Source: an uncultured Granulosicoccaceae bacterium
Lineage (GTDB): Bacteria; Pseudomonadota; Gammaproteobacteria; Granulosicoccales; Granulosicoccaceae
Direction: 5' to 3'
NCBI GenBank assembly: GCA_937930305.1
Contig: CALGLE010000048.1
Location: 62,001-126,000, forward strand
Length of the DNA stretch: 64,000 bases
Shown: positions 27,558 through 63,999 of the stretch, in pieces
Layout: every line of letters begins with the position of its first letter
Position numbering within the stretch: position 1 is the stretch's first letter
Position numbers and translations under genes: made by a program
The notes under the pieces: model-generated
The model's database searches: none
Seen by the model: only the letters and a program-made list of their open reading frames with translations
Told to the model about the DNA's origin: nothing

Positions 27558-29585
27558 TTACTCATTTACGCACGCACGCATAGCATCGAGCAGTGCACTG
27601 TGCAGGTTACGGCTTGCAACGGCGTCCCCAATACGCGCTAAATAAAACGAACCCTTTGGGTTAAGCGATGTGTACGGTGACAAGCCTTTTGTTAAGGAAT
27701 GCAAGTCCAGCTGCCCTAAGTTCATCGCATACGGTTTTAAAGCCTTATAGAGTTCATCGTTTGGTGTAACGCCGTGTTCAACGATGACATGATCGACTGT
27801 GTGTAGCTCTATGGTTTTCGTCAGAACGTGGCGTAAGCCCAGTCGCAAACGGTTGCCACTACGTTCAACAAACGCCAGTTCCTTCAAGCATTGAAATTCC
27901 ACCCCCATCAGGGCCAGATGTCGTAGTGCAACCGAAGAGGTCGTCGGTCCAAGCTCCTGTAGCAGATGCCGATCAGGGCTTACTATCGTCAAAGATGATG
28001 CCAGAGGGGCTATAACATCGGCGGTCACGGTACTTGCGTGATCCCCGACTTCGTCTAACAATAAAATATCACCCGATAAGTTTTGATGTTCAGACAAAAC
28101 ATCCCAGCTTGATAACGTCAGTTCTGCTCCCGGTGCGTTTACATGTTCCGGCCAGCCACCTGTTGCAACCACCACTAAATCACCGGGTTGCTCCAACACT
28201 TCCGTAGCTTCCACGTAGTGATTCAATTCGACTTCAACACCTAAGTGTTGAATTTCGTTTATCAGCCAATCCAGCGTGGCTTGCATTTGTTGTCGCAGGC
28301 TTCCCATGGAAGCTAGATTCAACTGGCCACCTAATCGATTAGAGGCTTCAATCAAACGAACACGGTGCCCGCGTTCTGCACTCACTCGCGCAGCTTCCAA
28401 ACCCGCTGGACCACCACCAACAACCGTTACTCGTTTCTTAAGTATCGCTGGCTGAATGATATGAGGCAGCCACAGCTCTCTTCCGGTTGCGGCATTTTGA
28501 CCACATACCGCCGGTTTTCCTTGATTGACTCGGTCAACGCAATAACCCAATCCAACACAGGGGCGAATACGATCTTCCTTGCCCGTTTTGAGTTTTTTAA
28601 CCAAGTAAGGATCGGCCATATGCGCGCGTGTCATGCCAACCAAATCCACATGGCCTTGCGCCACGGCATGTTCAGCCGTGGCGATATCCGCAATACCACC
28701 TGCGTGTAGTATGGGCACATTCACGGCCTCGCGAATGCGCCCTGCAACACTTATGTGCTCGGTTGCAGGCATTCCCATGGGTGGCACCCAACCAGCTAGG
28801 CCTAAATCATCATAGGGAGCACCCACTAATATATTAAATAGATCCACTTGCCCAGTATCTTCCAAGCGTATGGCGGCAGCTACACAATCATCGGCTGCCA
28901 ATCCACCTTCGAGTAGTTCATCCCCAGTGATGCGTAAAGACAAAACGAACTCAAAGCCAACTCGTTCACGAATAGCGGTGAGCACTTGTTCTGTTATTCG
29001 TAATCGATTTTCTAACGGGCCACCGTAGTCATCTTTGCGTTGATTCGTAAGAGGAGATAGAAACTGGCCTAACAAATGAGAATGAACCAGCACCTCAACC
29101 CCGTCAAACCCACCCTGTTGACAGCGATAAGCCGCATCAGCAAATTGAGCGATAACGCGATCGATATCCTGTTGCTCCATGACTTTGGGAAACGCTCGAT
29201 GGGCCCGCTCTCTGACAGCCGAAGGTGCAATGACCGGTAACCAGTCAGCGTTATCCCAGCTCGTGCGCCGCCCCATATGGGTGATTTGACACATCACCGC
29301 TGCACCGTTTGATTTAACACCGGCGCAAAGCTTTTGAAACCAAGGAATGACGCTATCGTCACCCGCATAAAGCTGACCAAACACCGACGGGCTATCGGGT
29401 GCAATGTTGGTGGAGCCACCGATCATCGTAAGGCCAACACCCCCTTTGGCCTTTTCTTCGTGATACGCACGATAGCGATCTTTAGGAAGCCCTCCTTCTG
29501 CAAAGCTAGGTGCGTGGGAGGTACTGACGATGCGATTACGTAATGTCAGTGATCCCACAGTAATCGGACTGAGCAGTTCGTTCAT
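27558..29585 (-). CDS. NADH:flavin oxidoreductase (OYE/FMN barrel) with FAD/NAD(P) domain
   Basis: LLSPITVGSLTLRNRIVSTSHAP, FDGVEVLVHSHLLGQFLSPLTNQRKDDYGG, CVGLGYCVDRVNQGKPAVCGQNAATGRE, VTVVGGGPAGLEAARVSAERGH. Confidence 0.88.
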   Translation of the reverse strand: MNELLSPITVGSLTLRNRIVSTSHAPSFAEGGLPKDRYRAYHEEKAKGGVGLTMIGGSTNIAPDSPSVFGQLYAGDDSVIPWFQKLCAGVKSNGAAVMCQITHMGRRTSWDNADWLPVIAPSAVRERAHRAFPKVMEQQDIDRVIAQFADAAYRCQQGGFDGVEVLVHSHLLGQFLSPLTNQRKDDYGGPLENRLRITEQVLTAIRERVGFEFVLSLRITGDELLEGGLAADDCVAAAIRLEDTGQVDLFNILVGAPYDDLGLAGWVPPMGMPATEHISVAGRIREAVNVPILHAGGIADIATAEHAVAQGHVDLVGMTRAHMADPYLVKKLKTGKEDRIRPCVGLGYCVDRVNQGKPAVCGQNAATGRELWLPHIIQPAILKKRVTVVGGGPAGLEAARVSAERGHRVRLIEASNRLGGQLNLASMGSLRQQMQATLDWLINEIQHLGVEVELNHYVEATEVLEQPGDLVVVATGGWPEHVNAPGAELTLSSWDVLSEHQNLSGDILLLDEVGDHASTVTADVIAPLASSLTIVSPDRHLLQELGPTTSSVALRHLALMGVEFQCLKELAFVERSGNRLRLGLRHVLTKTIELHTVDHVIVEHGVTPNDELYKALKPYAMNLGQLDLHSLTKGLSPYTSLNPKGSFYLARIGDAVASRNLHSALLDAMRACVNE

Positions 29586-29679
29586 TTCATCAGGTAACCA
29601 AAGTCGGTGACAAAACTAAAATATGCATCGTCATACACTTGTTGTCCTCGCCTGCCAATATAAATTTCAACGCGACTAA

Positions 29680-30678
29680 TCAAGCATTCAAACCTGCCAA
29701 CACATCGTGCCCCTGTGATTTCCAAAAATGCAGTAAGTCTATGAATATCCAATTCTCAGTTAGCTTATCCCCATCACGGCGATACACATCGATCACGCGT
29801 AAATCCCCCGGGGTATCACTGGGCGGGAACCCCATAAAGCCATTGGGGGTTACCGTTAAATTTGGCCAGCCAAAAAAGGCACCGAATTCGCCTTCGGCTA
29901 AACGACAAACATGCCCATTAAAGGTTCGGTCTTTTAAGCCGGCTCGAAAAGGCCCTGAGTGTTGTTCCGCGTAGCGTTCGATGGTGTATGTAGCGCCAAT
30001 GCCCGTCGGCCCCCACCAAATCATGTCTTCATTCCAGCTGCGCCGTAATTCATCCACTAGCGATTCTCCCTGCTCGCCCCCGCGCCAAGTTTTTATGTCA
30101 TTCACCATAAAATCGATGGCTGCCAAGGTGCGTTCCCCCTCAGCGGGATCCTGCGCATCAAACATCAAACCGGTGTGCGTCATGGGACCGGGTTGAACCA
30201 ACTGCGCCGCCGTTTGTTCTGGGAATGGGTTTATGCCCACCTGCGCCATCAGATGTGGGATATCAAAGTACATCGCCGTTTCAACAATCTGGTTGTCTTC
30301 TACGCGGTTAAATTCGCAATAGCGAAGCATCACCATCTTTTGGGTTGCAGGAATGCCTAACCACGCCACATCAAACAAACCCATCAAATGCCCCATGGAC
30401 ACCACCCACACACCGGATTGATCAGGCAGTGAATTCTCACCGGCCATAAACACATCCATGCGCCGCTGCATGTGCTGAACGGCCTGCCTTAAGGGCTTCC
30501 AGAATTCAGTGGCAACGGAGTCAGCCCCAACCATTTCATCAAACGGGTGATACCCTCTCCAAAAGTAATCTGCTGACGTATGCCGAGCCAAAACGGAAAC
30601 CAGTTCGTCTGGCTTGGCGGCATCAAACGCTTGGTAAAAATCGAGAATGAGTTGTTTTTGCTGTTGAAAATCAGTCAC
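29680..30678 (-). CDS. SnoaL-like / NTF2-fold protein (two-domain, about 330 aa)
   Basis: ILDFYQAFDAAKPDELVSVLARHTSADYFWRGYHPFDEM...RVIDVYRRDGDKLTENWIFIDLLHFWKSQG. Confidence 0.8.
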   Translation of the reverse strand: MTDFQQQKQLILDFYQAFDAAKPDELVSVLARHTSADYFWRGYHPFDEMVGADSVATEFWKPLRQAVQHMQRRMDVFMAGENSLPDQSGVWVVSMGHLMGLFDVAWLGIPATQKMVMLRYCEFNRVEDNQIVETAMYFDIPHLMAQVGINPFPEQTAAQLVQPGPMTHTGLMFDAQDPAEGERTLAAIDFMVNDIKTWRGGEQGESLVDELRRSWNEDMIWWGPTGIGATYTIERYAEQHSGPFRAGLKDRTFNGHVCRLAEGEFGAFFGWPNLTVTPNGFMGFPPSDTPGDLRVIDVYRRDGDKLTENWIFIDLLHFWKSQGHDVLAGLNA

Positions 30679-30756
30679 GTAAGTGCCTTGGGTTGAGTTT
30701 TTTTAGTCTACTTGGCGAATAAAACTTGCCAAGGCCTACATCATCAGTTTATCCTG

Positions 30757-30774
30757 TTTGCATAGGTATGCAAA
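30757..30774. promoter_or_regulatory. Candidate LacI-family operator
   Basis: Perfect 18-bp palindrome TTTGCATA-GG-TATGCAAA in the divergent intergenic region, 24 bp before the ABC ATPase start; the locus encodes a LacI regulator. Confidence 0.55.
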
Positions 30775-30798
30775 ACCGTTTTTATCTCGGAGATTTCA

Positions 30799-31851
30799 TT
30801 GGCAGAAATTCAGTTAGAGGGCCTTTCAAAACGGTGGGGAAGCTTTGTTGGGGTTGATAAATTTGACCTAACTATCGCCGATCAGGAATTTTTGGTCTTA
30901 CTCGGGCCATCGGGCTGCGGCAAAACCACCACCATGCGCATGATCGCAGGTTTGGAGGACGCTACCGAAGGCCAAATCAAAATCGATGGTCAGGTGGTGA
31001 ACGATTTGGAACCCAAAGATCGGGATGTGGCGATGGTATTTCAAAGCTACGCCCTGTATCCGAATATGAATGTGTACGAAAACATTCGCTTTCCGTTAAA
31101 AGTGCGCAATATCGATCCAGCATCCCACGACGAACGCGTTATGAAAGCCAGCGCTATGGTCGAGCTGGATGAATTTCTGAAACGTAAACCGGCCGAACTC
31201 TCTGGCGGTCAGCGCCAACGTGTTGCTCTAGCTCGAGCCATTGTGCGAAAACCCAAAGTGTTTTTAATGGACGAGCCGCTATCAAACTTAGATGCTAAGT
31301 TGCGTGTTTCGACCCGCGCACAAATCAAAAACCTCACACACGATTTGGCCGTTACCACGATCTATGTAACGCACGATCAAATTGAAGCCATGACTTTAGC
31401 CGACCGCGTTGTGGTGATGAAAGCGGGCATTGTGCAGCAGGTGGGAAGCCCCACAGAAATTTACGACACACCCGCCAATACGTTTGTCGCATCGTTTATC
31501 GGTAGCCCGGCCATGAATTTAATCGACGGTCGCTGCGAGCAAGGGCACTTCATCGCGAACCAAGTGAATATCCCAGGCATTGGCCAATCCGATGGCGGCT
31601 TTACATTGGGTTTTCGAGCTGAAGATGCCAGCATTGCAGAAGATGGCCAAGGCGAAATCACGGCCCCAATCTACGCGATCGAACTGTTAGGAGATGCCAC
31701 GATGGTGTCAGTTCGCATCAGCGGAAGCTTGGTCAGTGTGAAAGCCAACAAAAACTATCGAGCAGAAATTGGAGACACCGTTTCAATGTCGGTGCCTCCA
31801 AACATTTGTCACCTATTCGAAGCTGAATCAGGGACACGCATTGAGGCTTAA
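30799..31851 (+). CDS. Sugar-type ABC transporter ATP-binding protein (UgpC/MsmK family)
   Basis: GPSGCGKTTTMRMIAGLEDATEG, LSGGQRQRVALARAIVRKPKVFLMDEPLSNLDAKLR, TOBE-like C-terminus; TTG start. Confidence 0.93.
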   Translation: MAEIQLEGLSKRWGSFVGVDKFDLTIADQEFLVLLGPSGCGKTTTMRMIAGLEDATEGQIKIDGQVVNDLEPKDRDVAMVFQSYALYPNMNVYENIRFPLKVRNIDPASHDERVMKASAMVELDEFLKRKPAELSGGQRQRVALARAIVRKPKVFLMDEPLSNLDAKLRVSTRAQIKNLTHDLAVTTIYVTHDQIEAMTLADRVVVMKAGIVQQVGSPTEIYDTPANTFVASFIGSPAMNLIDGRCEQGHFIANQVNIPGIGQSDGGFTLGFRAEDASIAEDGQGEITAPIYAIELLGDATMVSVRISGSLVSVKANKNYRAEIGDTVSMSVPPNICHLFEAESGTRIEA

Positions 31852-31864
31852 TAGCCTAAAACCG

Positions 31865-31911
31865 TTCCCGACGCATCGGGACAAACAATTGATGCACCCG
31901 ATGGTGCATCA
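31865..31911 (+). other. Two adjacent intercistronic hairpins
   Basis: TTCCCGA-CGCA-TCGGGA-type stem (31865-31881) and TGATGCACC-CGAT-GGTGCATCA (31890-31911). Confidence 0.8.
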
Positions 31912-31936
31912 CTTCCACTAAGAGGGGACTGTAACT

Positions 31937-33160
31937 ATGTTGTTTAAAAAAGTAGCGTTGGCCACGGCCATCGGTCTTGTGGCATCAAACGCCATGGCCG
32001 AATGTGAAATCGGTGCACGCGTAAGCATTGTTGGCAATGAGTTTCCAGCCATTCAAGCGGTGGGCTCTGCCGCGGCAGAATGCTCGGGCTCAGAAGTTAA
32101 ATCCAACCTCACCGCTGATCATCAGAAGATCAACGTTGCAGGTATGTCAGGTAATCCGGCGGAATACACCTCAGCCATCATCGCTAACTCGTCTATCGTT
32201 GCTTTGATGAACGAAGACGTGATTCGCCCATTGGATGATTTGGTGGCGAAACACGGTGCCGATTTAAAGAAAAATCAGTTGATTACCATCGACGGTAAAA
32301 TCATGGCAGTCGCCTTCATGGCGAACGCACAACACCTGGTTTATCGCAAAGACGTGTTGGAAGAAATTGGTGTTGAACCGCCAACTACTTACGAAGAAAT
32401 GCTAGCTGCAGCTGAAATGATTCGCGAGAAAGGCATCATGGATAATCCGCTTGGCGGCGCTTATGCAGCCGGCTGGAATCTGGCGCAAGAATTCAACAAT
32501 ATGTACATCGGTATGGGCGGCGACTTCTTCAAAGCAGGTACAGCGGAAGTTTCGATCAATAACGAGGCAGGTATTGCAGCACTCGAGATGATGAAGTCTT
32601 TAAGCGAATACATGAACCCAGATTTTCTGACGCATGATTCCAACGCCACGTCTGCTGAATGGAAAGCGGGTAATGTCGCGATCATGAATATGTGGGGTTC
32701 TCGTGTTGGTCCTTTACGTGAAACTGAAGGCTCTTCTCAAGAAGTGGTTGATAACACTATGATCGCCGGCCCCATGACCGTCGGTGGCGGCGAGACACCA
32801 GCAACCACTTTGTGGTGGGATGGCTGGACCGTTGCCAAGAACATCAGCGACGAAGAAGCTGAAGCCACGTTCATTGCTTTGAATCATGCGATCCGTCCCG
32901 ATATGTTGAACGAAGAAACGTCTCCGATGGCTGTTTGGCTAATCGACGGCTATGAGCCGACTCCAGCTGCAACCGGCGTATTCGATGCCGCGAATCGAGG
33001 ATCGGTTCCGTATCCGATGTTGCCTTTCCAAGGGTTGTTACACACTTCCCTTGGCGAAGAATTGTCTGACTTCATGCAAGGCAAAGAAGATGCAGCCACA
33101 GCGTTGGCTGATGTGGAAGCTGCCTACACAGCAAAGGCGAAAGAAAAAGGTTTCCTATAA
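31937..33160 (+). CDS. Extracellular solute-binding protein of a sugar-type ABC importer
   Basis: Signal peptide ALATAIGLVASNAMA; family-1-like SBP features (MAVAFMANAQHLVYRKDVLEEIGVEPPTTYEEMLAAAEMI). Confidence 0.88.
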   Translation: MLFKKVALATAIGLVASNAMAECEIGARVSIVGNEFPAIQAVGSAAAECSGSEVKSNLTADHQKINVAGMSGNPAEYTSAIIANSSIVALMNEDVIRPLDDLVAKHGADLKKNQLITIDGKIMAVAFMANAQHLVYRKDVLEEIGVEPPTTYEEMLAAAEMIREKGIMDNPLGGAYAAGWNLAQEFNNMYIGMGGDFFKAGTAEVSINNEAGIAALEMMKSLSEYMNPDFLTHDSNATSAEWKAGNVAIMNMWGSRVGPLRETEGSSQEVVDNTMIAGPMTVGGGETPATTLWWDGWTVAKNISDEEAEATFIALNHAIRPDMLNEETSPMAVWLIDGYEPTPAATGVFDAANRGSVPYPMLPFQGLLHTSLGEELSDFMQGKEDAATALADVEAAYTAKAKEKGFL

Positions 33161-33186
33161 GCCTTAATTTTCTATAAGTCTTAATT
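33153..33186 (+). repeat. 17-bp tandem duplication spanning the SBP stop codon
   Basis: TCCTATAAGCCTTAATT / TTCTATAAGTCTTAATT, two mismatches. Confidence 0.85.
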
Positions 33187-33191
33187 AAGAG

Positions 33192-33226
33192 GGTATGCGA
33201 GTGAGAACATCAAGCACTCGCATACC
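33192..33226 (+). other. 12-bp perfect stem hairpin between SBP and permease genes
   Basis: GGTATGCGAGTG-AGAACATCAAG-CACTCGCATACC; no following T run. Confidence 0.85.
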
Positions 33227-33277
33227 TACCTTTCTTATCGAATTCTACTCACCGATGGGCGGCCATCTCCTGCCACT

Positions 33278-34303
33278 ATGAAACACAAAACGTTTTTCTG
33301 GTTCATATTGCCAACAGCCAGCGCCATGCTGCTGTTCATCGCGCTGCCTATCATTTCTGTCGTCACGCAATCTCTGTTCACACCACACGAGCAAGTGTTG
33401 GAAGTGGTTGAGAACTGCGGGCCATTTGGCTGTAAAGAGACAACAACCGTCAATCAAGAAGCCACACAAAAGTTACGCGATGCAAAACCTTTAGGAAAAT
33501 TCGCAGGCTTAGATATTTATTTCGATCGAGGTCATCTCGCCGTCAACGAGGTGAGCGAAGCGTGGAAGACTCGCACCGATATGTCGGACTTTTTCAATGC
33601 CTTGAGAAATCTACCGTTCTATCGAGCCATGGGATTCACGCTAACGCACACCTTCACGGTAACCCCATTACTGATTATTTTAGGATTCATTATCGCGGTT
33701 GCGGTGAACTCCTTACATCGGCATTTAAAAGGCCTTGCCATCTTCTTCTCGCTGCTCCCCATGATAGTGACCCCATTAATTGGATCGCTGATTCTATTTT
33801 GGATGGTGGACAGTCGCGGAATTGTTGGCAACGCGCTGCAGTGGCTGTTCTCCGATCCAACACTGTCTTTAAAGGCTTCTACAGGTTACACCTGGATTAT
33901 GTTGATTGTGTACGGTGTCTGGCATTCCGCACCCTTCGCCTTTGTCGTTTTCTACGCCGGCTTACAAACACTACCGCAAGACACTTTAGAGAGCTCGATG
34001 ATTGATGGTGCATCGCGTTGGCAACAAATACGCTATGTGGTCATTCCACACATCATGCCCTTGGTTACCTTTGTGGCATTAATCCAGTTAATGGACAACT
34101 TTCGAGTGTTTGAATCCATTGTTGGCTTTAGCGCACAAGCTCATGCCACGTCTTTGTCGTGGATCATATTTAATGATTTAGGTGGAGAAACTCGCGCGTT
34201 GTCATCCGCTGCCGCCACTTCAGTTCTAACTATTCTGGGCGTCGCCATCTTACTCTCTCCCGTACTGGTTCGAACTTGGCAAGATTTTAAGGTGAAGCAG
34301 TAA
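33278..34303 (+). CDS. Sugar-type ABC transporter permease (MalF/UgpA-like)
   Basis: EAA loop DTLESSMIDGASRWQQIRYVVIPHIMPL; multiple TM segments. Confidence 0.9.
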   Translation: MKHKTFFWFILPTASAMLLFIALPIISVVTQSLFTPHEQVLEVVENCGPFGCKETTTVNQEATQKLRDAKPLGKFAGLDIYFDRGHLAVNEVSEAWKTRTDMSDFFNALRNLPFYRAMGFTLTHTFTVTPLLIILGFIIAVAVNSLHRHLKGLAIFFSLLPMIVTPLIGSLILFWMVDSRGIVGNALQWLFSDPTLSLKASTGYTWIMLIVYGVWHSAPFAFVVFYAGLQTLPQDTLESSMIDGASRWQQIRYVVIPHIMPLVTFVALIQLMDNFRVFESIVGFSAQAHATSLSWIIFNDLGGETRALSSAAATSVLTILGVAILLSPVLVRTWQDFKVKQ

Positions 34304-34304
34304 C

Positions 34305-35186
34305 ATGAAAGCAAAAGCCTTTAAACAACCCCCTGCCCTGCGCACCTTATCGTCGCTGTTTATTATCCTTTGGCTTTTCCTGGCCGCTTTTCCTTTTCTA
34401 TGGACGCTATGGGGTTCATTCAAAGTTGAATTGGATTTATTTTCCAAAGCCGATTGGACCAATGCCATCACTGGTGCTCGCACCATCGCTGAACACGGCA
34501 GCGCATTTACTGGCAATGGCTATGAAGGTGCGTGGGTACAAGAGGAGTTTTGGAAGGCCGTTATCAATACCGCGTTGGTGTGTTTCTTCGTGGTTACCAT
34601 CTCTCTCACTATTGGAACTCTGGGTGGATACGCACTATCACGCTCACAATTTCGATACACCTTTTGGTTGTTGATCACCGCCTTGATTTTTAGGGCAATG
34701 CCGCCCATCACGCTGGTGTCTGGTTATTTGCTGCCATTTTTTGAATGGAATTTATGGGGCATATTGCCCACCACGATTGTTGTGTTGGTCGCTATCAATC
34801 AACCATTCACCTTGTGGATGCTGCATAGCTTCTTCCAAAAAATTCCCAAAGAATTGGACGAAAGCGCGAAGGTCGATGGTTGCTCGCAATTTCAAGCGTT
34901 CCGACACGTCATCATTCCCGTCATGTGGCCAGGGGTCATTACGACGGGCTTGTTCAGCTTTTTGTTGGCATACAACGACTTTGCTGTCACGTCCATGCTG
35001 TTATCAAAAGAAAATCAAACCATGGTGCCAAAAATATACAGTTTTCTTGGAACCACACAAACCGAAGGCAATGTCATGTTTGCGGTTGCCGCTGTGGTTT
35101 CAGCAACCGCACCACTGTTTGTCCTGGTGATGTTTTTCCAACGGCAGATTGTGTCTGGGTTAACTCAAGGTGCGGTCAAAGGTTAA
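34305..35186 (+). CDS. Sugar-type ABC transporter permease (MalG/UgpE-like)
   Basis: EAA loop [29 protein letters not shown]. Confidence 0.92.
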
Positions 35187-35199
35187 GTTAAGGGTACTT

Positions 35200-36510
35200 A
35201 TGACAATTGAATACTTAAAACGTGGAATTTCGGATTCCGACCGGGCCGAGGACGATGCGAAAACGGCAGCCGTTGTCGCCGACACCCTGAAGCAAATCGA
35301 ACAGCATGGGGACAAGGCCGTACATGAATTGGCGGTTAAATTCGATAATTATGATCGAGAATCCTATCGTTTAACCGATGATGAAATTCAATCTATTATC
35401 GCGAAAGTGAGTGCTCGCGATATGGAAGATTTAAAGTTTGCCCAGGAGCAAGTTCGCAACTTCGCCCAAGCACAACGCGCCAGCATGGTAGACATCGAAA
35501 TTGAAACCTTACCTGGCGTCATTTTGGGTCATAAAAATATCCCCGTACAGTCGGTGGGTTGTTATGTGCCCGGTGGCAAATTCCCAATGGTCGCGTCAGC
35601 TCATATGTCGATTGCCACCGCATCGGTTGCAGGCGTTCCTCGCATAGTGGCTTGCACTCCGCCATTCAATGGCGAACCCAATCCGGCGGTTATTGCGGCT
35701 ATGCACTTAGGTGGTGCGCATGAAATTTATGTGCTCGGAGGCATTCAAGCGGTGGGTGCGATGGCCTTGGGAACTCAAACCATTGCACCGGTGCATTTGC
35801 TGGTAGGGCCTGGAAACGCATTCGTGGCCGAAGCCAAACGGCAATTGTTTGGTCGTGTGGGCATTGATCTGTTCGCCGGCCCCACCGAAACCATGGTAAT
35901 CGCCGATGACACAGTGGATGCTGAACTGTGTGCAACCGATTTGTTAGGCCAAGCCGAACATGGGTATAACAGTCCCGCTGTTTTACTGACCAATTCGCGA
36001 ACACTGGCCGAAGAGACACTAAAAGAAATCGATCGCTTACTTACCATCCTGCCAACAGCTGATACGGCATCCGTCAGTTGGCGTGACTACGGTGAAGTGA
36101 TTCTTTGCGATACCTACGACGAAATGCTGGAAGTTGCCGATGACATCGCTTCAGAGCATGTACAGGTGATGACCGATCGTGACGATTGGTTTTTAGAGAA
36201 TATGACGTGCTATGGCGCATTGTTTCTTGGGGCTCGAACGAATGTGGCCAATGGCGATAAGGTCATCGGCACGAATCATACCTTGCCAACGAAAAAAGCC
36301 GGTCGTTACACCGGTGGCTTGTGGGTGGGGAAATTTCTAAAAACGCATTCCTATCAGAAGGTGTTAACCGATGAGGCGGCAACCACCATCGGTGAATACG
36401 GCTCGCGTTTGTGCATGTTGGAAGGTTTTGTTGGGCACGCTGAGCAATGCAATGTGAGGGTTCGCCGATACGGTAAGAAAAACGTACCTTACGGCGAAGC
36501 GGCACTTTGA
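35200..36510 (+). CDS. Histidinol-dehydrogenase-family enzyme; possible sulfopropanediol dehydrogenase (HpsN-like)
   Basis: HisD fold motifs ([75 protein letters not shown]) with candidate Zn ligands kept ([22 protein letters not shown]). N-terminus MTIEYLKRG and catabolic context suggest HpsN-like rather than biosynthetic HisD. Start refined to internal ATG. Confidence 0.8.
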
Positions 36511-36519
36511 TCTAACACC

Positions 36520-37284
36520 ATGGCACTCCCAACGACACCCTCATTTAGATTGGATGGAAAGCGCGCTTTGGTCGCTGGCGCATCCTCAGGTATTGGACTG
36601 GGTGCGGCAGTGGCATTGGCTGAAGCCGGTGCACACGTTTTCGTCGCGGCAAGACGCGCGGACGCACTTGATGAGCTCGTTGCCACCCTGTCAAAACGAG
36701 ATTTAAAAGCTACGGCTGTGCCGATGGATGTGTGTGATTTCGAGGCCACTCAAAAAACGGTGGCAGAACACGGCCCGTTTGATGTGTTGGTAAATTCTGC
36801 CGGCTTGGCCCGTCACAGTGCCGCTGTGAATACCACTGAAACGGACTATGACGCGGTAACGGATTTAAATGTTAAAGCCGCCTACTTTCTTACCCAGGCC
36901 GTTGCGAAGGGTTTATTAAACTCTAAGAAGCCTGGGTCTCTGATCAACATTTCTTCTCAAATGGCGCATGTGGGTGGGCCTGAACGAGCGGTGTATTGCG
37001 CCACAAAACACGCGGTGGAGGGCTTTACCAAAGCCATGGCCATTGAATGGGGGCCATCCAACATCCGAGTGAATACGGTTTGTCCGACGTTTGTACTCAC
37101 CGAGTTATCGAAGGTAACCTTTGATGACCCGGTTAAAAAGCAATGGATCTTGGATAAGATTCAACTGAACAGAGCGGCCGAAATTGAAGACATCATGGGG
37201 CCGGTGGTTTTTCTCGCCTCGGATGCTTCCGCCATGATCACTGGCACATCTTTGCTGGTGGATGGCGGTTGGACTGCCGACTGA
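36520..37284 (+). CDS. SDR family dehydrogenase (gluconate 5-dehydrogenase-like)
   Basis: RALVAGASSGIGLGAAVALAEAGA, LVNSAGLARH, YCATKHAVEGFTKAMAIEWGPSNIRVNTVCPTFV, ITGTSLLVDGGW. Confidence 0.9.
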   Translation: MALPTTPSFRLDGKRALVAGASSGIGLGAAVALAEAGAHVFVAARRADALDELVATLSKRDLKATAVPMDVCDFEATQKTVAEHGPFDVLVNSAGLARHSAAVNTTETDYDAVTDLNVKAAYFLTQAVAKGLLNSKKPGSLINISSQMAHVGGPERAVYCATKHAVEGFTKAMAIEWGPSNIRVNTVCPTFVLTELSKVTFDDPVKKQWILDKIQLNRAAEIEDIMGPVVFLASDASAMITGTSLLVDGGWTAD

Positions 37285-38318
37285 TGTCATCTGAAAAAAT
37301 CACATCCATTGAAGTGGCTCATCGGGCCGGTGTGAGTCAGTCGGCGGTCAGTCGCGTGTTTACACCGGGTGCATCGGCTTCAAAACAAACGGTTGAAAAG
37401 GTAAGAAAAGCGGCCTCTGAGCTTGGCTATCGACCCAATGTATTGGCTCGAGCCATGGTGTCCGGAAAAAGCCGAATTATCGGGCTTTTGGTGGCTTATC
37501 TAGACAACCAATTTTATCCAGACGCGCTGGAAAAACTCTCCAGTGCGTTACAAGAACGTGGGTATCATTTACTGGTATTCATGGCGGGAAAAGACGCTGG
37601 CAACATCGACAATGTGGTGGATGAAATGCTGGACTACCAAGTCGAAGGCATTATTGCAGCTTCTGTCTCGATGTCGTCAAAGCTGGCTGAACGTTGCCAA
37701 AGCGTTGGTGTTCCAATCGTATTTTTTAACCGATCACAAAATGATGAAACCCGCTTTGCGGTAACGTCAGATAACTACGCAGGTGGCCGCAAAGTCGCTG
37801 ACTACTTAGTCGCTGCGGGGCATACAAAGATCGCTTACATCGCCGGGTGGCAATTTGCGTCCACACAATACGATCGAGAAGCAGGCTTTGTTGACGGGTT
37901 GAACAAACATCAAATAAATTTACACGCTCGTGGCGTTGGCAACTTTACATCCGAGGGCGCTGCAGAGGCTGCGCGTTTGTTATTCGATAAAGACCCGCCC
38001 GATGCACTGTTTGTTGCCAATGACCATATGGCGTTCAGTGTGATGGACACCTTACGCTATGAATTAGGGCTGTCCATTCCAGACGATGTATCGGTGGTTG
38101 GCTACGATGATGTGCCGATTGCCAGTTGGCCTTCCTTTAATTTAACGACCGTTCGTCAACGCGCGAATCAGATGGTATCCAAAACCGTGGACATCATCAT
38201 TGCGCAAATCGAAGGCGATGCGGCAAAACCACAAAATGTAAAAATTGAAGCGCCCTTGATCGTGCGGGGATCAACGAGGGCCATCGCGAGTTGCCAGCCC
38301 AATTCAAGCGTAAAATGA
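37284..38318 (+). CDS. LacI family transcriptional regulator
   Basis: ITSIEVAHRAGVSQSAVSRVFTPGASASKQTVEKVRKAASELGYRPNVLARAM; start refined to the ATG overlapping the SDR stop (TGATG). Confidence 0.93.
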   Translation: MSSEKITSIEVAHRAGVSQSAVSRVFTPGASASKQTVEKVRKAASELGYRPNVLARAMVSGKSRIIGLLVAYLDNQFYPDALEKLSSALQERGYHLLVFMAGKDAGNIDNVVDEMLDYQVEGIIAASVSMSSKLAERCQSVGVPIVFFNRSQNDETRFAVTSDNYAGGRKVADYLVAAGHTKIAYIAGWQFASTQYDREAGFVDGLNKHQINLHARGVGNFTSEGAAEAARLLFDKDPPDALFVANDHMAFSVMDTLRYELGLSIPDDVSVVGYDDVPIASWPSFNLTTVRQRANQMVSKTVDIIIAQIEGDAAKPQNVKIEAPLIVRGSTRAIASCQPNSSVK

Positions 38319-39286
38319 AAGGTTTTGATCCAAAATTTAAGGATTTACCCGACTACATCTTGGGAATCACCCAAGAGATTTGGGAAAATCGCGGCATCCA
38401 TACACTGAATCAATACTACGGCAAAGACATTTGCTTACGCATGCCGCTGGGCGTGTACCACGGTAATCAAGGCGTTATCAGTAAAACCCAAAGTACACTG
38501 GTGGAGTTTCCTGATCGAGAACTGCTGGGTGAGGATGTTATTTGGTCAGGCAATGAAGACGACGGGTTTTTAAGTTCGCATCGATTGTATTGCACGGGAA
38601 CCCATAGCGGCCCAAGTATGTTTGGCAGCCCGACCGGTAAGCCCGTTGTTTTCCGCGTTATTGCGGATTGCTACGCCATCAATAATCAAATCACCGATGA
38701 ATGGTTGGTGCGCGACTATGGTGCGGTGGCGAAGCAATTGGGAACGGATGCAAGAAACATTGCCCAGGCATTAATCCAAAGTGAAGGTGGGCCGGAACAC
38801 GCCTTACCCACACTCACACCTGCCAATGACCCAACCGGGCCGTATCAGGGAAAAGGTAATGATAACGAATGGGGTGAAACCTACGCCGATTATCTAACTC
38901 GCCTGATGCGCGCTGAATTCAGCTTAATTCCCTTACGTTACGACCGAGCGGTACACGCAGAATACCCTGGTCAAATCAGTGCGCATGGTTGGAAAGCCGT
39001 CGATGCTTTCTGGCTAGGTTTACGAGCCTCTTTTCCAAATGCCGTGTTCTCTATTGAACACCAAATAGGTCGTGACGATGCGCAAAGCCCGCCTCGAGCC
39101 GCTTTACGATGGAGCTTGCACGGTAAACACGAAGGTTGGGGCCACTTTGGTAAACCCAGCGGCGCAGACGTTTACATCCTGGGTATCAGCCACGCAGAGT
39201 TTGGGCCTAGAGGCTTACGCCGGGAATATACCGTTTTCGATGAGGTAGCTATCTGGAAACAGATCCTCCTCCAACAGATGGACTAA
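38315..39286 (+). CDS. SnoaL-like / NTF2-fold protein (two-domain)
   Basis: ITQEIWENRGIHTLNQYYGKDICLRMPLGVYHGNQGVI, GWKAVDAFWLGLRASFPNAVFSIEHQIGRDD; ATGA overlap with the LacI stop. Confidence 0.78.
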   Translation: MKGFDPKFKDLPDYILGITQEIWENRGIHTLNQYYGKDICLRMPLGVYHGNQGVISKTQSTLVEFPDRELLGEDVIWSGNEDDGFLSSHRLYCTGTHSGPSMFGSPTGKPVVFRVIADCYAINNQITDEWLVRDYGAVAKQLGTDARNIAQALIQSEGGPEHALPTLTPANDPTGPYQGKGNDNEWGETYADYLTRLMRAEFSLIPLRYDRAVHAEYPGQISAHGWKAVDAFWLGLRASFPNAVFSIEHQIGRDDAQSPPRAALRWSLHGKHEGWGHFGKPSGADVYILGISHAEFGPRGLRREYTVFDEVAIWKQILLQQMD

Positions 39287-39292
39287 CTGACT

Positions 39293-40276
39293 ATGACGAC
39301 AACAGCGCTCAACATGGAATCAAGAATTGTTCGCTACGGAGATTTACAGCCGTGTCGAACGGCGTTTATCGACGCTCATACGCCTGGCTCTGATCAAAAA
39401 GAAAATTTCACCATCATTGGTGGTGGCGTGTCTGAAAGTGCCGATCAACATGTGCATATACACGATACGCCAGGGTTTAACATTGGCGCGGCCGGTCAAC
39501 CACCCCGGGTTAGAAATTCATTGCACAGCCACACAACGGCTGAAGTTTTTTTCATATTAAAAGGTAAGTGGCGGTTCTTTTGGGGTCGTTGGGGCAACGC
39601 CGGTGAAGTGGTTTTGGAAGAAGGCGATATTATTGATATCCCCACGGGCATTTTCAGAGGCTTTGAAAATATTGGCACCGACTACGGCATGATCATGGCT
39701 GTACTGGGCGGTGACGATGCCGGTGGCGGCGTCACCTGGGCACCCCAAGTGATCACCGACGCGGCTGATCATGGCCTAGTGCTCGCAGAATCAGGCCGAC
39801 TGTACGATACAAAAAAAGGTGAGGCGTTACCTGAAGGCGTGAAGCCGATGCCGTTACTCGATGAAGCGCAATTACGTAACATACCCGAACCCAGTGTGGA
39901 GGACGTGGTACCTCACTATGTTGCCCGCTATTGGGATTTAATGTCGTTAGCCCACGACAAACCGGCCGCGGTTATTGGTGAAAACGCAATAATAAAAGAC
40001 AAACCGGGGTTTGATTTAGAATTTCTGACTCGAGGCTCGATCAGCTCTGAACTGCATACCAGCGACCAACATGAAATTTTGATGCCGATGCGTGGGCACT
40101 GGAAATTCACATGGGAAAGTGGCAGCACCGTGCTGAACCCCGGGGACACCTGTGCGGTTCCCCCAGGGACTGCTCATTCGTTGCAACCTAACATGAGTGG
40201 TGAAGCCAGCCTGTATCGGGTTCGTTCCAATGAAGACCCGGCAGGGCCTACGTGGAATGCACGGTTTCAAAGTTAA
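39293..40276 (+). CDS. Double-cupin protein
   Basis: Two cupin blocks: LHSHTTAEVFFILKGKWRFFWGRWG...GDIIDIPTGIFRGFEN and HTSDQHEILMPMRGHWKFTWESG...GDTCAVPPGTAHSLQPN. An alternative ATG lies at 39314. Confidence 0.82.
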   Translation: MTTTALNMESRIVRYGDLQPCRTAFIDAHTPGSDQKENFTIIGGGVSESADQHVHIHDTPGFNIGAAGQPPRVRNSLHSHTTAEVFFILKGKWRFFWGRWGNAGEVVLEEGDIIDIPTGIFRGFENIGTDYGMIMAVLGGDDAGGGVTWAPQVITDAADHGLVLAESGRLYDTKKGEALPEGVKPMPLLDEAQLRNIPEPSVEDVVPHYVARYWDLMSLAHDKPAAVIGENAIIKDKPGFDLEFLTRGSISSELHTSDQHEILMPMRGHWKFTWESGSTVLNPGDTCAVPPGTAHSLQPNMSGEASLYRVRSNEDPAGPTWNARFQS

Positions 40277-61941: not shown

Positions 61942-63126
61942 CTACGTCACAGCCTTCACGGTCAAGTAAATCGGGTTATCCCACAATCGATTTTCTATCA
62001 CATCAGCTAGAACGTCCACCGCTTGGGTAACATCGTGTTCATCAGTGTACAAAGGGGTAAAGCCGAATCGCATTAAATTCGGTTGACGAAAATCACCGAT
62101 CACTTTTCGATCAATCAGTGCTTGCATCGCAGCGTAGCCGTTTTCGAACGCAAACGACACTTGCGAGCCTCGTTCTGCGCTGTTTCTGGGGCTGACAAGT
62201 TCCAGTGAAGGGCATCGCTGTTCCACTAATTGTATGAACAGTTCACTCAATTCCACAGAACGCTGTCGAACATCGTGCATGGAAATACCCTGCCACACCG
62301 CTAGCGCTGATTCCAACACCGCCATTTGAATCACTGGCGGTGTACCGACTCGAAAGCGTTCCATCTGTTGGCCTGGCCTATATTGAGGTTCAAACGCAAA
62401 CGGTGCATCGTGCCCTAACCAACCACTTAAAATGGGTTGCACTTGATCGGCAATGTCAGGCCTTGCATAAATAAACGCTGGCGCACCCGGGCCTGCGTTA
62501 AGGTATTTATAGGTGCATCCCACGGCGAACTCACATCCACAGGCTTCAACGTCCACCACCACAGCCCCAGCACTGTGGGCTAAGTCCCACAGCATCACAG
62601 CACCGGCTTGATGTGCAGCGGCTGTGATGTTCTGCATATCGTGCATGCGACCGGTGCGGTAATCGATATGCGTTAACATCACGACCGCAACTGACTCATC
62701 TATTGCGTCACGCACCTCCTCAGGATCTACTATTTTCAATTCATAATCCCCATTGATATGACTCATTAAACCTTCAGCCATATACAGATCGGTGGGGAAA
62801 TTTCCCGAATCGGATAACACAACGCGCCGATCAGGCCTTAAAGATAGCGCGGCGGATACGGCTTGAAACACCTTAATTGATAAGGTATCGCCCACCATGA
62901 TGGTGTCGTTAGACGCACCGATAATCGGTGCTAAGGCGTTGCCCAGTGACCCCGGTTGCTGCATCCAACCATCGCGATTCCATCCGGTGATCAGATGCTC
63001 GCCCCATTGATCTTGAATCACGGCAGCCGTTTGCTTTAACGCGGCAACCGGCAAAGGCCCTAATGAGTTTCCATCCAAATAGATCATATCTTTGGGTAGA
63101 TGAAACTGATGTTTGATCGGCAGCAT
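61942..63126 (-). CDS. kynU: Kynureninase
   Basis: IYLDGNSLGPLPVAALKQTAAVIQDQWGEHLITGWN, DSGNFPTDLYMAEGL, LWDLAHSAGAVVVDVEACGCEFAVGCTYKYLNAGPGAPAFIY. Confidence 0.93.
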   Translation of the reverse strand: MLPIKHQFHLPKDMIYLDGNSLGPLPVAALKQTAAVIQDQWGEHLITGWNRDGWMQQPGSLGNALAPIIGASNDTIMVGDTLSIKVFQAVSAALSLRPDRRVVLSDSGNFPTDLYMAEGLMSHINGDYELKIVDPEEVRDAIDESVAVVMLTHIDYRTGRMHDMQNITAAAHQAGAVMLWDLAHSAGAVVVDVEACGCEFAVGCTYKYLNAGPGAPAFIYARPDIADQVQPILSGWLGHDAPFAFEPQYRPGQQMERFRVGTPPVIQMAVLESALAVWQGISMHDVRQRSVELSELFIQLVEQRCPSLELVSPRNSAERGSQVSFAFENGYAAMQALIDRKVIGDFRQPNLMRFGFTPLYTDEHDVTQAVDVLADVIENRLWDNPIYLTVKAVT

Positions 63127-63179: not shown

Positions 63180-63872
63180 TTAACTAAGCCACTTTAGTAA
63201 TGCGTCGCAGGCCGCATCGGGTTGCTCTAACACCACCAAATGCCCAGCATTAGGGACAACGGTTAATGTGGAATTAGGCAAAAGCTCGTGCATGGTTTCA
63301 TGCTTTGCCACCGAGCATAACTCATCGTCTTCCCCGCATAAAACCAGTGAGGGCACGTTAACCTGTGTCAGGGTTTGCGCATAGTCTTCCCGGTCGCGTA
63401 GGCTTTCCGATTGTGCCACGAACACATCGGGGCCTAAATCCATCGCCATTTGCATGCACAAATCCAATATTCGCCCTCTTTCTGGGCCGTCGGTTAAGTA
63501 ATTGGGCTTCATTTCATCGCGCATGACGGCCCACAATCCACCCGCTTTTACGGCTTCAATTTGTGGTGCACGTGTAGCCGCTTTGTCTGCATTTTCCGCT
63601 GAGCAATTGGTATCGAGTAAAGCAAGGCGTTCAATGCGTGTGGGCGCTTTCTTTATCATCTCCATGGCCACAATGCCGCCCATGGAAAGTCCTGCCAAAA
63701 CAAAACTCGGTGGTGCGTGGCGCAACACCGTTTCGGCCAAGCCTTGAATGGAATGACTGCCCGTTAATGGGAAACACATAATAGGGCGCGTGCTCGACAA
63801 GCGTTCAATGACGGGTGTGAACAGGCGGGCATCACACATCATGCCGGGCAGCAAAACCAGAGGGGCTAACAA
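63180..63872 (-). CDS. Alpha/beta hydrolase
   Basis: LLPGMMCDARLFTPVIERL, FVLAGLSMGGIVAMEM, LVLCGEDDELCSV, NAGHLVVLEQPDA. TTG start at 63872, just after the upstream stop, proposed. Confidence 0.82.
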   Translation of the reverse strand: MLAPLVLLPGMMCDARLFTPVIERLSSTRPIMCFPLTGSHSIQGLAETVLRHAPPSFVLAGLSMGGIVAMEMIKKAPTRIERLALLDTNCSAENADKAATRAPQIEAVKAGGLWAVMRDEMKPNYLTDGPERGRILDLCMQMAMDLGPDVFVAQSESLRDREDYAQTLTQVNVPSLVLCGEDDELCSVAKHETMHELLPNSTLTVVPNAGHLVVLEQPDAACDALLKWLS

Positions 63873-63873
63873 T

Positions 63874-63999
63874 TTAGCGCCCTTTCCACACCGGATCGCG
63901 CTTTTCAGCAAACGCTTTAGCGCCTTCTAAGTTATCTTCTGAGCCGTAAAGAATATCAACGGTACGAAGTTTTCGTTGTGTTACACGATTCATGGCGTC
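63874..63999 (-). CDS. Enoyl-CoA hydratase/isomerase family, C-terminal 41 residues (continues beyond the window)
   Basis: Minus-strand reading DAMNRVTQRKLRTVDILYGSEDNLEGAKAFAEKRDPVWKGR-stop, the typical crotonase C-terminus. Confidence 0.75.
   Translation of the reverse strand, partial: DAMNRVTQRKLRTVDILYGSEDNLEGAKAFAEKRDPVWKGR

Follow-up and report, generated by a model that had tools for sequence, protein, structure and literature searches.

What compound is taken up and degraded by an operon that joins a sugar-type ATP-binding cassette (ABC) importer to a relative of histidinol dehydrogenase (HisD), two SnoaL-like proteins, and a double cupin? The question is raised by a locus in a 64,000-nucleotide stretch of DNA from an uncultured Granulosicoccaceae bacterium (contig CALGLE010000048.1, positions 62,001 to 126,000), the whole of which we refer to as the window. 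Our answer, which we hold at a probability of about 0.5, is that the locus is a LacI-controlled operon for the uptake and degradation of a small polar ring compound carrying hydroxymethyl and O-methyl groups. Gene content, conservation, the operator, intact catalytic residues, and the loss of a sulfonate-binding residue are direct results; we infer every reaction and the substrate. The catabolic system, built on a distinct clade of HisD/HpsN-like proteins, is apparently undescribed, and a search of the open-access literature for this gene combination found no published description of it.

Conservation, regulation, and layout of the operon

We scanned GTDB genomes with SnoaL-B, a two-domain SnoaL-like protein of the operon, obtained 248 relatives, and examined 80 loci, mostly from marine Rhodobacterales, SAR116, and Rhizobiaceae and including open-ocean SAR116 and ALOHA genomes. 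Full-locus counts refer to the 59 loci that span 20 kb or more, where SnoaL-B is present by construction. The ATPase, binding protein, permeases, HisD-type dehydrogenase, short-chain dehydrogenase/reductase (SDR), LacI regulator, and cupin recur in 57 to 59 of these 59. The locus is a real, conserved catabolic operon of familiar architecture, as a preliminary description of the window had suspected. Most full loci also encode an additional SnoaL between the HisD-type and SDR genes (57/59), an RraA-type aldolase (54/59), a single-domain SnoaL (52/59), a MetE-like protein (51/59), and an alpha/beta hydrolase (42/59). Related forms of the gene set occur in rhizobia, Deinococcus, and haloarchaea.

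Within the GTDB family of the window, 37 of 48 genomes have the HisD-type gene, and other species of the same genus have the full operon, including the MetE-like and hydrolase genes. The closest sister species, whose HisD-type protein is 93% identical, shares both the short form and the flanks with the window, without SnoaL-B and without the old yellow enzyme (OYE)-type flavoprotein that the preliminary description had counted as part of the system. Because full operons occur in the genus and the sister short form has no OYE gene, we read the window operon as a trimmed version of the full set and the OYE gene as an apparent later insertion. The otherwise syntenic sister locus and 59/59 full-length loci lack this gene, and on this synteny we rejected it as a pathway enzyme.

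Judged by sequence identity, the components missing from the window operon exist elsewhere in the same genome. These are a MetE-like gene on contig 49 (76 to 78% identity), RraA (56 to 63%) with a SnoaL-B paralog on contig 1, SnoaL-C (54%) on contig 20, SnoaL-D (60%) on contig 2, and a single-domain SnoaL (70%) with another SnoaL-B paralog on contig 4.

The palindrome noticed earlier in the shared promoter region is real. The sequence TTTGCATAGGTATGCAAA, composed of TTTGCATA-GG-TATGCAAA, lies in the divergent promoter region and corresponds to an operator, TTTGCATANNTATGCAAA, that is conserved across relatives. At ≤2 mismatches, this operator has 70 sites in the 1.5 Mb of the 80 loci, compared with 0 in one shuffled set, and it is present in 48/80 loci, with CG at the center of 68/70 sites. 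Thirty-two pairs of sites are spaced 53 to 56 bp apart, close to five helical turns, as would suit a looped or cooperative repressor. The window operator is the only perfect copy in its genome; the sole other site, with two mismatches, is at 51693 on contig 1, with the RraA gene ∼47 kb away. Across 26 genomes or records searched, the operator occurs 1 to 4 times in most, mainly at this locus, and we suggest that the adjacent LacI protein binds it. In Sinorhizobium, Martelella, Alloyangia, and Deinococcus plasmids, the same operator also stands ahead of operons with cupin, amidase/SnoaL, or SDR-hydrolase-RraA genes, and this shared site links them in a single regulon.

Gene positions and family names agreed with those first proposed, and Pfam assignments concurred (Table 1). 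The tight spacing of the nine plus-strand genes was likewise real, with TGATG (SDR/LacI) and ATGA (LacI/SnoaL-B) overlaps. For the proposed extent of the system, 27558 to 40276, the operon itself stood and the OYE end did not; functionally the interval is too narrow, since a pathway hydrolase, PcaD-like but below the cut-off, is encoded at 63180 to 63911. A kynureninase-like gene (61942 to 63126) adjoins this hydrolase gene, an arrangement also found in the sister species.

Table 1. Features of the locus and associated genes in the window
Feature	Position	Strand	Basis and remarks
OYE-type flavoprotein	27558-29585	-	Between SnoaL-A and XdhC; not part of system
SnoaL-A, two-domain SnoaL-like (NTF2 fold)	29680-30678	-	Pfam SnoaL/SnoaL_2; divergent from operon
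Operator TTTGCATAGGTATGCAAA, probable LacI-family site	30757-30774	.	Perfect 8+2+8 palindrome
ABC transporter ATPase, MalK/UgpC type	30799-31851	+	NCBIfam UgpC above cut-off; 58/59 loci
Periplasmic solute-binding protein, sugar type	31937-33160	+	Pfam SBP_bac_8/SBP_bac_1; 59/59 loci
ABC permease 1	33278-34303	+	59/59 loci
ABC permease 2	34305-35186	+	59/59 loci
HisD-family Zn/NAD dehydrogenase, separate clade, GKFPM motif	35200-36510	+	Pfam Histidinol_dh; tree; motif
SDR	36520-37284	+	Pfam adh_short_C2; 57/59 loci
LacI-family regulator	37284-38318	+	Pfam LacI + Peripla_BP_3; 59/59 loci
SnoaL-B, two-domain SnoaL-like protein	38315-39286	+	Pfam SnoaL
Double cupin, candidate ring-cleaving dioxygenase	39293-40276	+	Pfam Cupin_2
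Alpha/beta hydrolase, ortholog of operon-borne one in relatives	63180-63911	-	57% identity to Ruegeria operon protein

The HisD-type dehydrogenase

The key enzyme was first described as a probably catabolic HisD homolog nearer to HpsN, the dehydrogenase of 2,3-dihydroxypropane-1-sulfonate (DHPS), than to HisD, and both judgments held. Among solved structures, HpsN ranked first (E value, 4e-117) and HisD second (1e-76). The tree places the window clade (support, 98/96) as the sister of HpsN (100/100) and well away from HisD, with long branches that make the HisD side uncertain. Translation from the ATG at 35200 begins with MTIEYLKRG, as noted previously and in agreement with the start of PDB 8wwe, and the protein passes the broad TIGR00069 cut-off, as HpsN does. 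No other his genes lie beside the HisD-type gene in the window or in related loci.

HisD and HpsN can be told apart by a short motif, GSAPL in HisD and GRY(A/S)H in HpsN, the final His of which (His126) binds the sulfonate (PMC11382572, the source of the residue roles used here for this family). The window protein instead has GKFPM, a motif common to all window-type orthologs, and Met (Met130) occupies the His126 position in 95/95 window-type sequences; in more distant clade members this residue is Met or Leu and in no case His. The Zn-ligand and catalytic residues Q251, H254, E319, H320, D353, and H413 are retained in 95/95, as is K354. The bacterium also has a genuine HpsN (GRYSH) on contig 20 (L106:9066-11448), with the alpha and beta subunits of sulfopyruvate decarboxylase encoded directly after it, which we take to be a DHPS route distinct from the operon. 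Because the catalytic residues are intact, His126 is lost, and a separate HpsN exists, the HisD-type enzyme should oxidize a CH2OH group next to a chelating group, though probably not one on a sulfonate. This disfavors the sulfonated substrate entertained earlier and agrees with the earlier view that this is not the known DHPS route: neither HpsP nor a sulfolyase is among the recurrent neighbors, and there is only one SDR.

Other HisD-like proteins came to light during the analysis. A divergent family member on contig 12 of the same genome (L083:1297-2787), with E for the Zn-ligand Q and GPGS for GPGN, is encoded between amino-acid oxidase-like and gamma-glutamyltransferase-like genes, with no his genes adjacent. 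Another clade (GR[YF]PL) occurs in amidase-containing clusters (L131:16355-17641, L134:3514-4803, and L127:10133-11431), and a HisD-type gene accompanies LacI and major facilitator superfamily (MFS) genes on a conjugative Salmonella plasmid (L181:8917-10224).

Proposed route and candidate substrates

The preliminary description left the SnoaL and cupin proteins as unassigned isomerase, cyclase, or lyase steps. A closer placement is possible, the cupin being nearest, by fold, to ring-cleaving dioxygenases and related bicupins. Its predicted model (predicted local distance difference test [pLDDT], 81.5; predicted template modeling score, 0.84) has MncA, quercetinase, salicylate dioxygenase, and oxalate decarboxylase as top fold matches, and a profile search touches acireductone dioxygenase (E value, 3e-4). 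Only the N-terminal metal site is conserved, with H78, H80, and E84 invariant, and we consider the protein a candidate ring-cleaving dioxygenase. SnoaL-B has a confident predicted model (pLDDT, 91.6) that matches IdmH and SnoaL2 in fold, and a solved-structure search with its sequence gave weak generic relatives only. Orthologs of SnoaL-A (44 to 72% identity) hold the same divergent position in many loci. On a Phaeobacter piscinae plasmid (L089:16001-19186), a SnoaL-A ortholog lies beside a distant relative of methanethiol oxidase (SBP56), with the importer present and the HisD-type gene absent. In the MetE-like protein, H242, C244, E276, and C342 are invariant (12 sequences), and His, Cys, Glu, Cys is the zinc-ligand pattern of MetE; here too, the solved-structure search returned weak generic relatives only.

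Distant clusters retain a core of HisD-type, SDR, cupin, hydrolase, and aldolase genes while other parts are exchanged, and the SDR is paired with this HisD clade in Klebsiella, Delftia, Emticicia, and Novosphingobium as well. In Klebsiella and Deinococcus, RraA is replaced by HpcH/HpaI aldolases, with HpaI the best score. A Halobellus limi plasmid cluster (L087:2301-20989) combines five SnoaL genes with a MetE-like protein, an HpaI-like aldolase, a catechol-2,3-dioxygenase-like protein, and a protein related to the syringate/vanillate O-demethylases DesA/LigM (E value, 4e-141, below the curated cut-off). In Emticicia, this HisD clade has extradiol, catechol-2,3-dioxygenase-like proteins as neighbors, and in Sphingobium a MetE-like relative adjoins MetF and a DesA above the cut-off; the window's own genome gave only distant matches to shared domains for a LigM/DesA-type demethylase. 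Since aldolases are swapped, dioxygenase-like proteins are neighbors, the cupin has a dioxygenase-like fold, and DesA/LigM relatives recur, we favor a route in which the compound is demethylated, its ring is opened by a dioxygenase, and hydrolysis and a retro-aldol step then release pyruvate. The simple polyol first suggested as a substrate is weakened by these partner genes, which point to a methylated ring compound. A compact HisD-SDR-MFS-hydrolase-aldolase-cupin cluster was also seen on a conjugative Klebsiella plasmid (L128:4190-10185).

In the route that we propose, the importer would take up a small polar ring compound, and the HisD-type enzyme would convert a CH2OH group beside a Zn-chelating hydroxyl or amine to a carboxylate in two NAD-dependent steps. 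The SDR would adjust a neighboring secondary alcohol or ketone, the SnoaL proteins would perform cofactor-free eliminations, isomerizations, or hydrolyses, and the MetE-like protein, encoded here on another contig, would accept the methyl group. The double cupin would then cleave the ring with O2, and the alpha/beta hydrolase and RraA aldolase would complete the route to pyruvate.

On chemical fit, the best candidate substrates are mycosporine-like amino acids (MAAs) or gadusol, an identification that we offer tentatively. The 4-deoxygadusol core of MAAs has a tertiary alcohol bearing CH2OH, an O-methyl enol ether, and a cyclohexenone, and 4-carboxy-4-hydroxy-2-oxoadipate is the substrate of LigK-type RraA aldolases, which yield pyruvate and oxaloacetate. 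Oxidation of the CH2OH group of this core by the HisD-type dehydrogenase, O-demethylation to a reductone by the methyltransferase, and cleavage between C1 and C2 by the cupin dioxygenase would give 4-carboxy-4-hydroxy-2-oxoadipate, which the RraA aldolase could split into pyruvate and oxaloacetate. The amidase and second HisD-type gene of some other versions would chemically suit the fungal mycosporine-glutaminol.

Several observations weigh against the proposed route or this substrate. The MetE-like proteins could use methyl-folate made elsewhere instead of the substrate, and in land-plant and soil relatives the HisD-SDR-cupin-hydrolase-aldolase core is retained but the MetE-like gene is absent, so that the O-methyl assignment applies mainly to the marine and haloarchaeal versions. 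The usual third metal His is missing from the N-terminal site of the cupin (F121-R122), and its fold matches include storage proteins as well as oxalate decarboxylase. The scattered pathway genes of the window's genome have no operator copy and thus no visible coregulation, and our search of the open-access literature found no paper linking MAA catabolism to these genes.

The strongest rival, somewhat less probable than MAAs, is a sugar, polyol, sugar acid, or glycerol glycoside, from which the HisD-type enzyme would form an aldonate-type acid and the aldolase would cut a 2-keto-3-deoxy acid. The importer type and the LacI regulator suit such a substrate, the binding protein has SmoF as its best solved relative (a weak match; E value, 3.5e-11), and the SDR scores nearest the KduD and glucose dehydrogenase groups. 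In addition, the cupin-aldolase-hydrolase trio adjoins the tetronate genes otnK/otnI in Vibrio, and the HpcH aldolases resemble GarL too. However, related loci show no recurrent kinase, dehydratase, or sugar isomerase, and neither a MetE-like methyltransferase nor multiple SnoaL copies are known to act in pathways of this type.

We think it rather unlikely that the substrate is a methoxylated aromatic compound bearing a glycerol-like side chain, derived from lignin or phenylpropanoids, whose terminal CH2OH would be oxidized by the HisD-type enzyme while the SnoaL proteins act like the NTF2-fold lyases of sphingomonad lignin pathways. The Sphingobium neighborhood, which includes hydroxycinnamoyl-CoA lyase in addition to the syringate O-demethylase DesA and MetF, fits this idea, as do the Novosphingobium and Emticicia neighborhoods, where this HisD clade adjoins extradiol dioxygenases, FAH hydrolases, and monooxygenases. 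Yet those aromatic clusters encode HisD-type proteins of only 63 to 66% identity and lack such an importer, the importer here is of the sugar type, and most close relatives, open-ocean genomes among them, are marine, where lignin is scarce.

Still less probable is an N-methylated or amide-containing compound from which the OYE and, in relatives, an amidase or sarcosine oxidase would release nitrogen. The nearest named relative of the OYE is the N-methyl-L-proline demethylase HpbA (48%), an amidase gene neighbors this operator in Martelella, Alloyangia, and Sinorhizobium, and a sarcosine oxidase adjoins the Vibrio version, but the OYE is absent from all related loci and the amidase is found in 1/59 close loci. 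Against mycofactocin FadH/OYE 2 (TIGR03997) the OYE scores 517 bits, below the cut-off of 793, and the second Cys of its CxxCxxxC iron-sulfur motif is Leu (CVGLGYC). A homarine operon, considered as a candidate, was set aside because the literature search gave nothing comparable and the importer type did not match. A sulfonate pathway, in which the HisD-type enzyme would be an HpsN with DHPS or a sulfonated sugar as its substrate, is very improbable. The kinship of the enzyme with DHPS dehydrogenases in structure and tree and its retained Lys354 are outweighed by the His126 test and the separate HpsN, on which we rejected this reading, and by the lack of any recurrent sulfolyase or HpsP-type gene.

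If MAAs or gadusol are the substrate, the operon encodes a bacterial route, so far undescribed, for degrading the chief natural sunscreens of marine algae. Many surface-ocean bacteria (Roseobacters, SAR116) carry the gene set, and its key enzyme is labeled histidinol dehydrogenase in databases. Naming the substrate would correct the annotation of hundreds of genomes and probably show the recycling of a common algal metabolite, and the operator motif and GKFPM signature are simple markers for detecting the system.

Relation to known systems

With the bicupin quercetin 2,3-dioxygenase and salicylate/gentisate 1,2-dioxygenases and with acireductone dioxygenase, the window cupin shares two cupin domains, an N-terminal HxHxxxE motif, and its best fold matches, whereas the third metal His is missing, the C-terminal site is unconserved, and identity is only 12 to 16%. 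The two interchangeable aldolases of the pathway belong to the same families as the RraA/LigK 4-carboxy-4-hydroxy-2-oxoadipate and HpaI 4-hydroxy-2-oxoheptanedioate aldolases but score below the curated cut-offs of both. The sulfoquinovose smo operon has a related sugar-type ABC importer with SmoF as its binding protein, although the binding-protein match is weak and no sulfoquinovose enzymes recur in the loci.

The HisD-type protein is 47% identical to the genome's own HpsN and belongs with HpsN, the (R)-DHPS 3-dehydrogenase (PDB 8v35, 8wwe), to one family of Zn/NAD four-electron alcohol dehydrogenases; the two share all metal and catalytic residues, and both are paired with an SDR. It differs in having Met for His126 and in forming a separate, supported clade, and the locus has no HpsP, sulfolyase, or tripartite ATP-independent periplasmic (TRAP)/MFS DHPS transporter as hps clusters do. 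With HisD, it shares the Pfam family and catalytic residues but has GKFPM in place of GSAPL, is distant in the tree, and is encoded in a catabolic operon with an importer.

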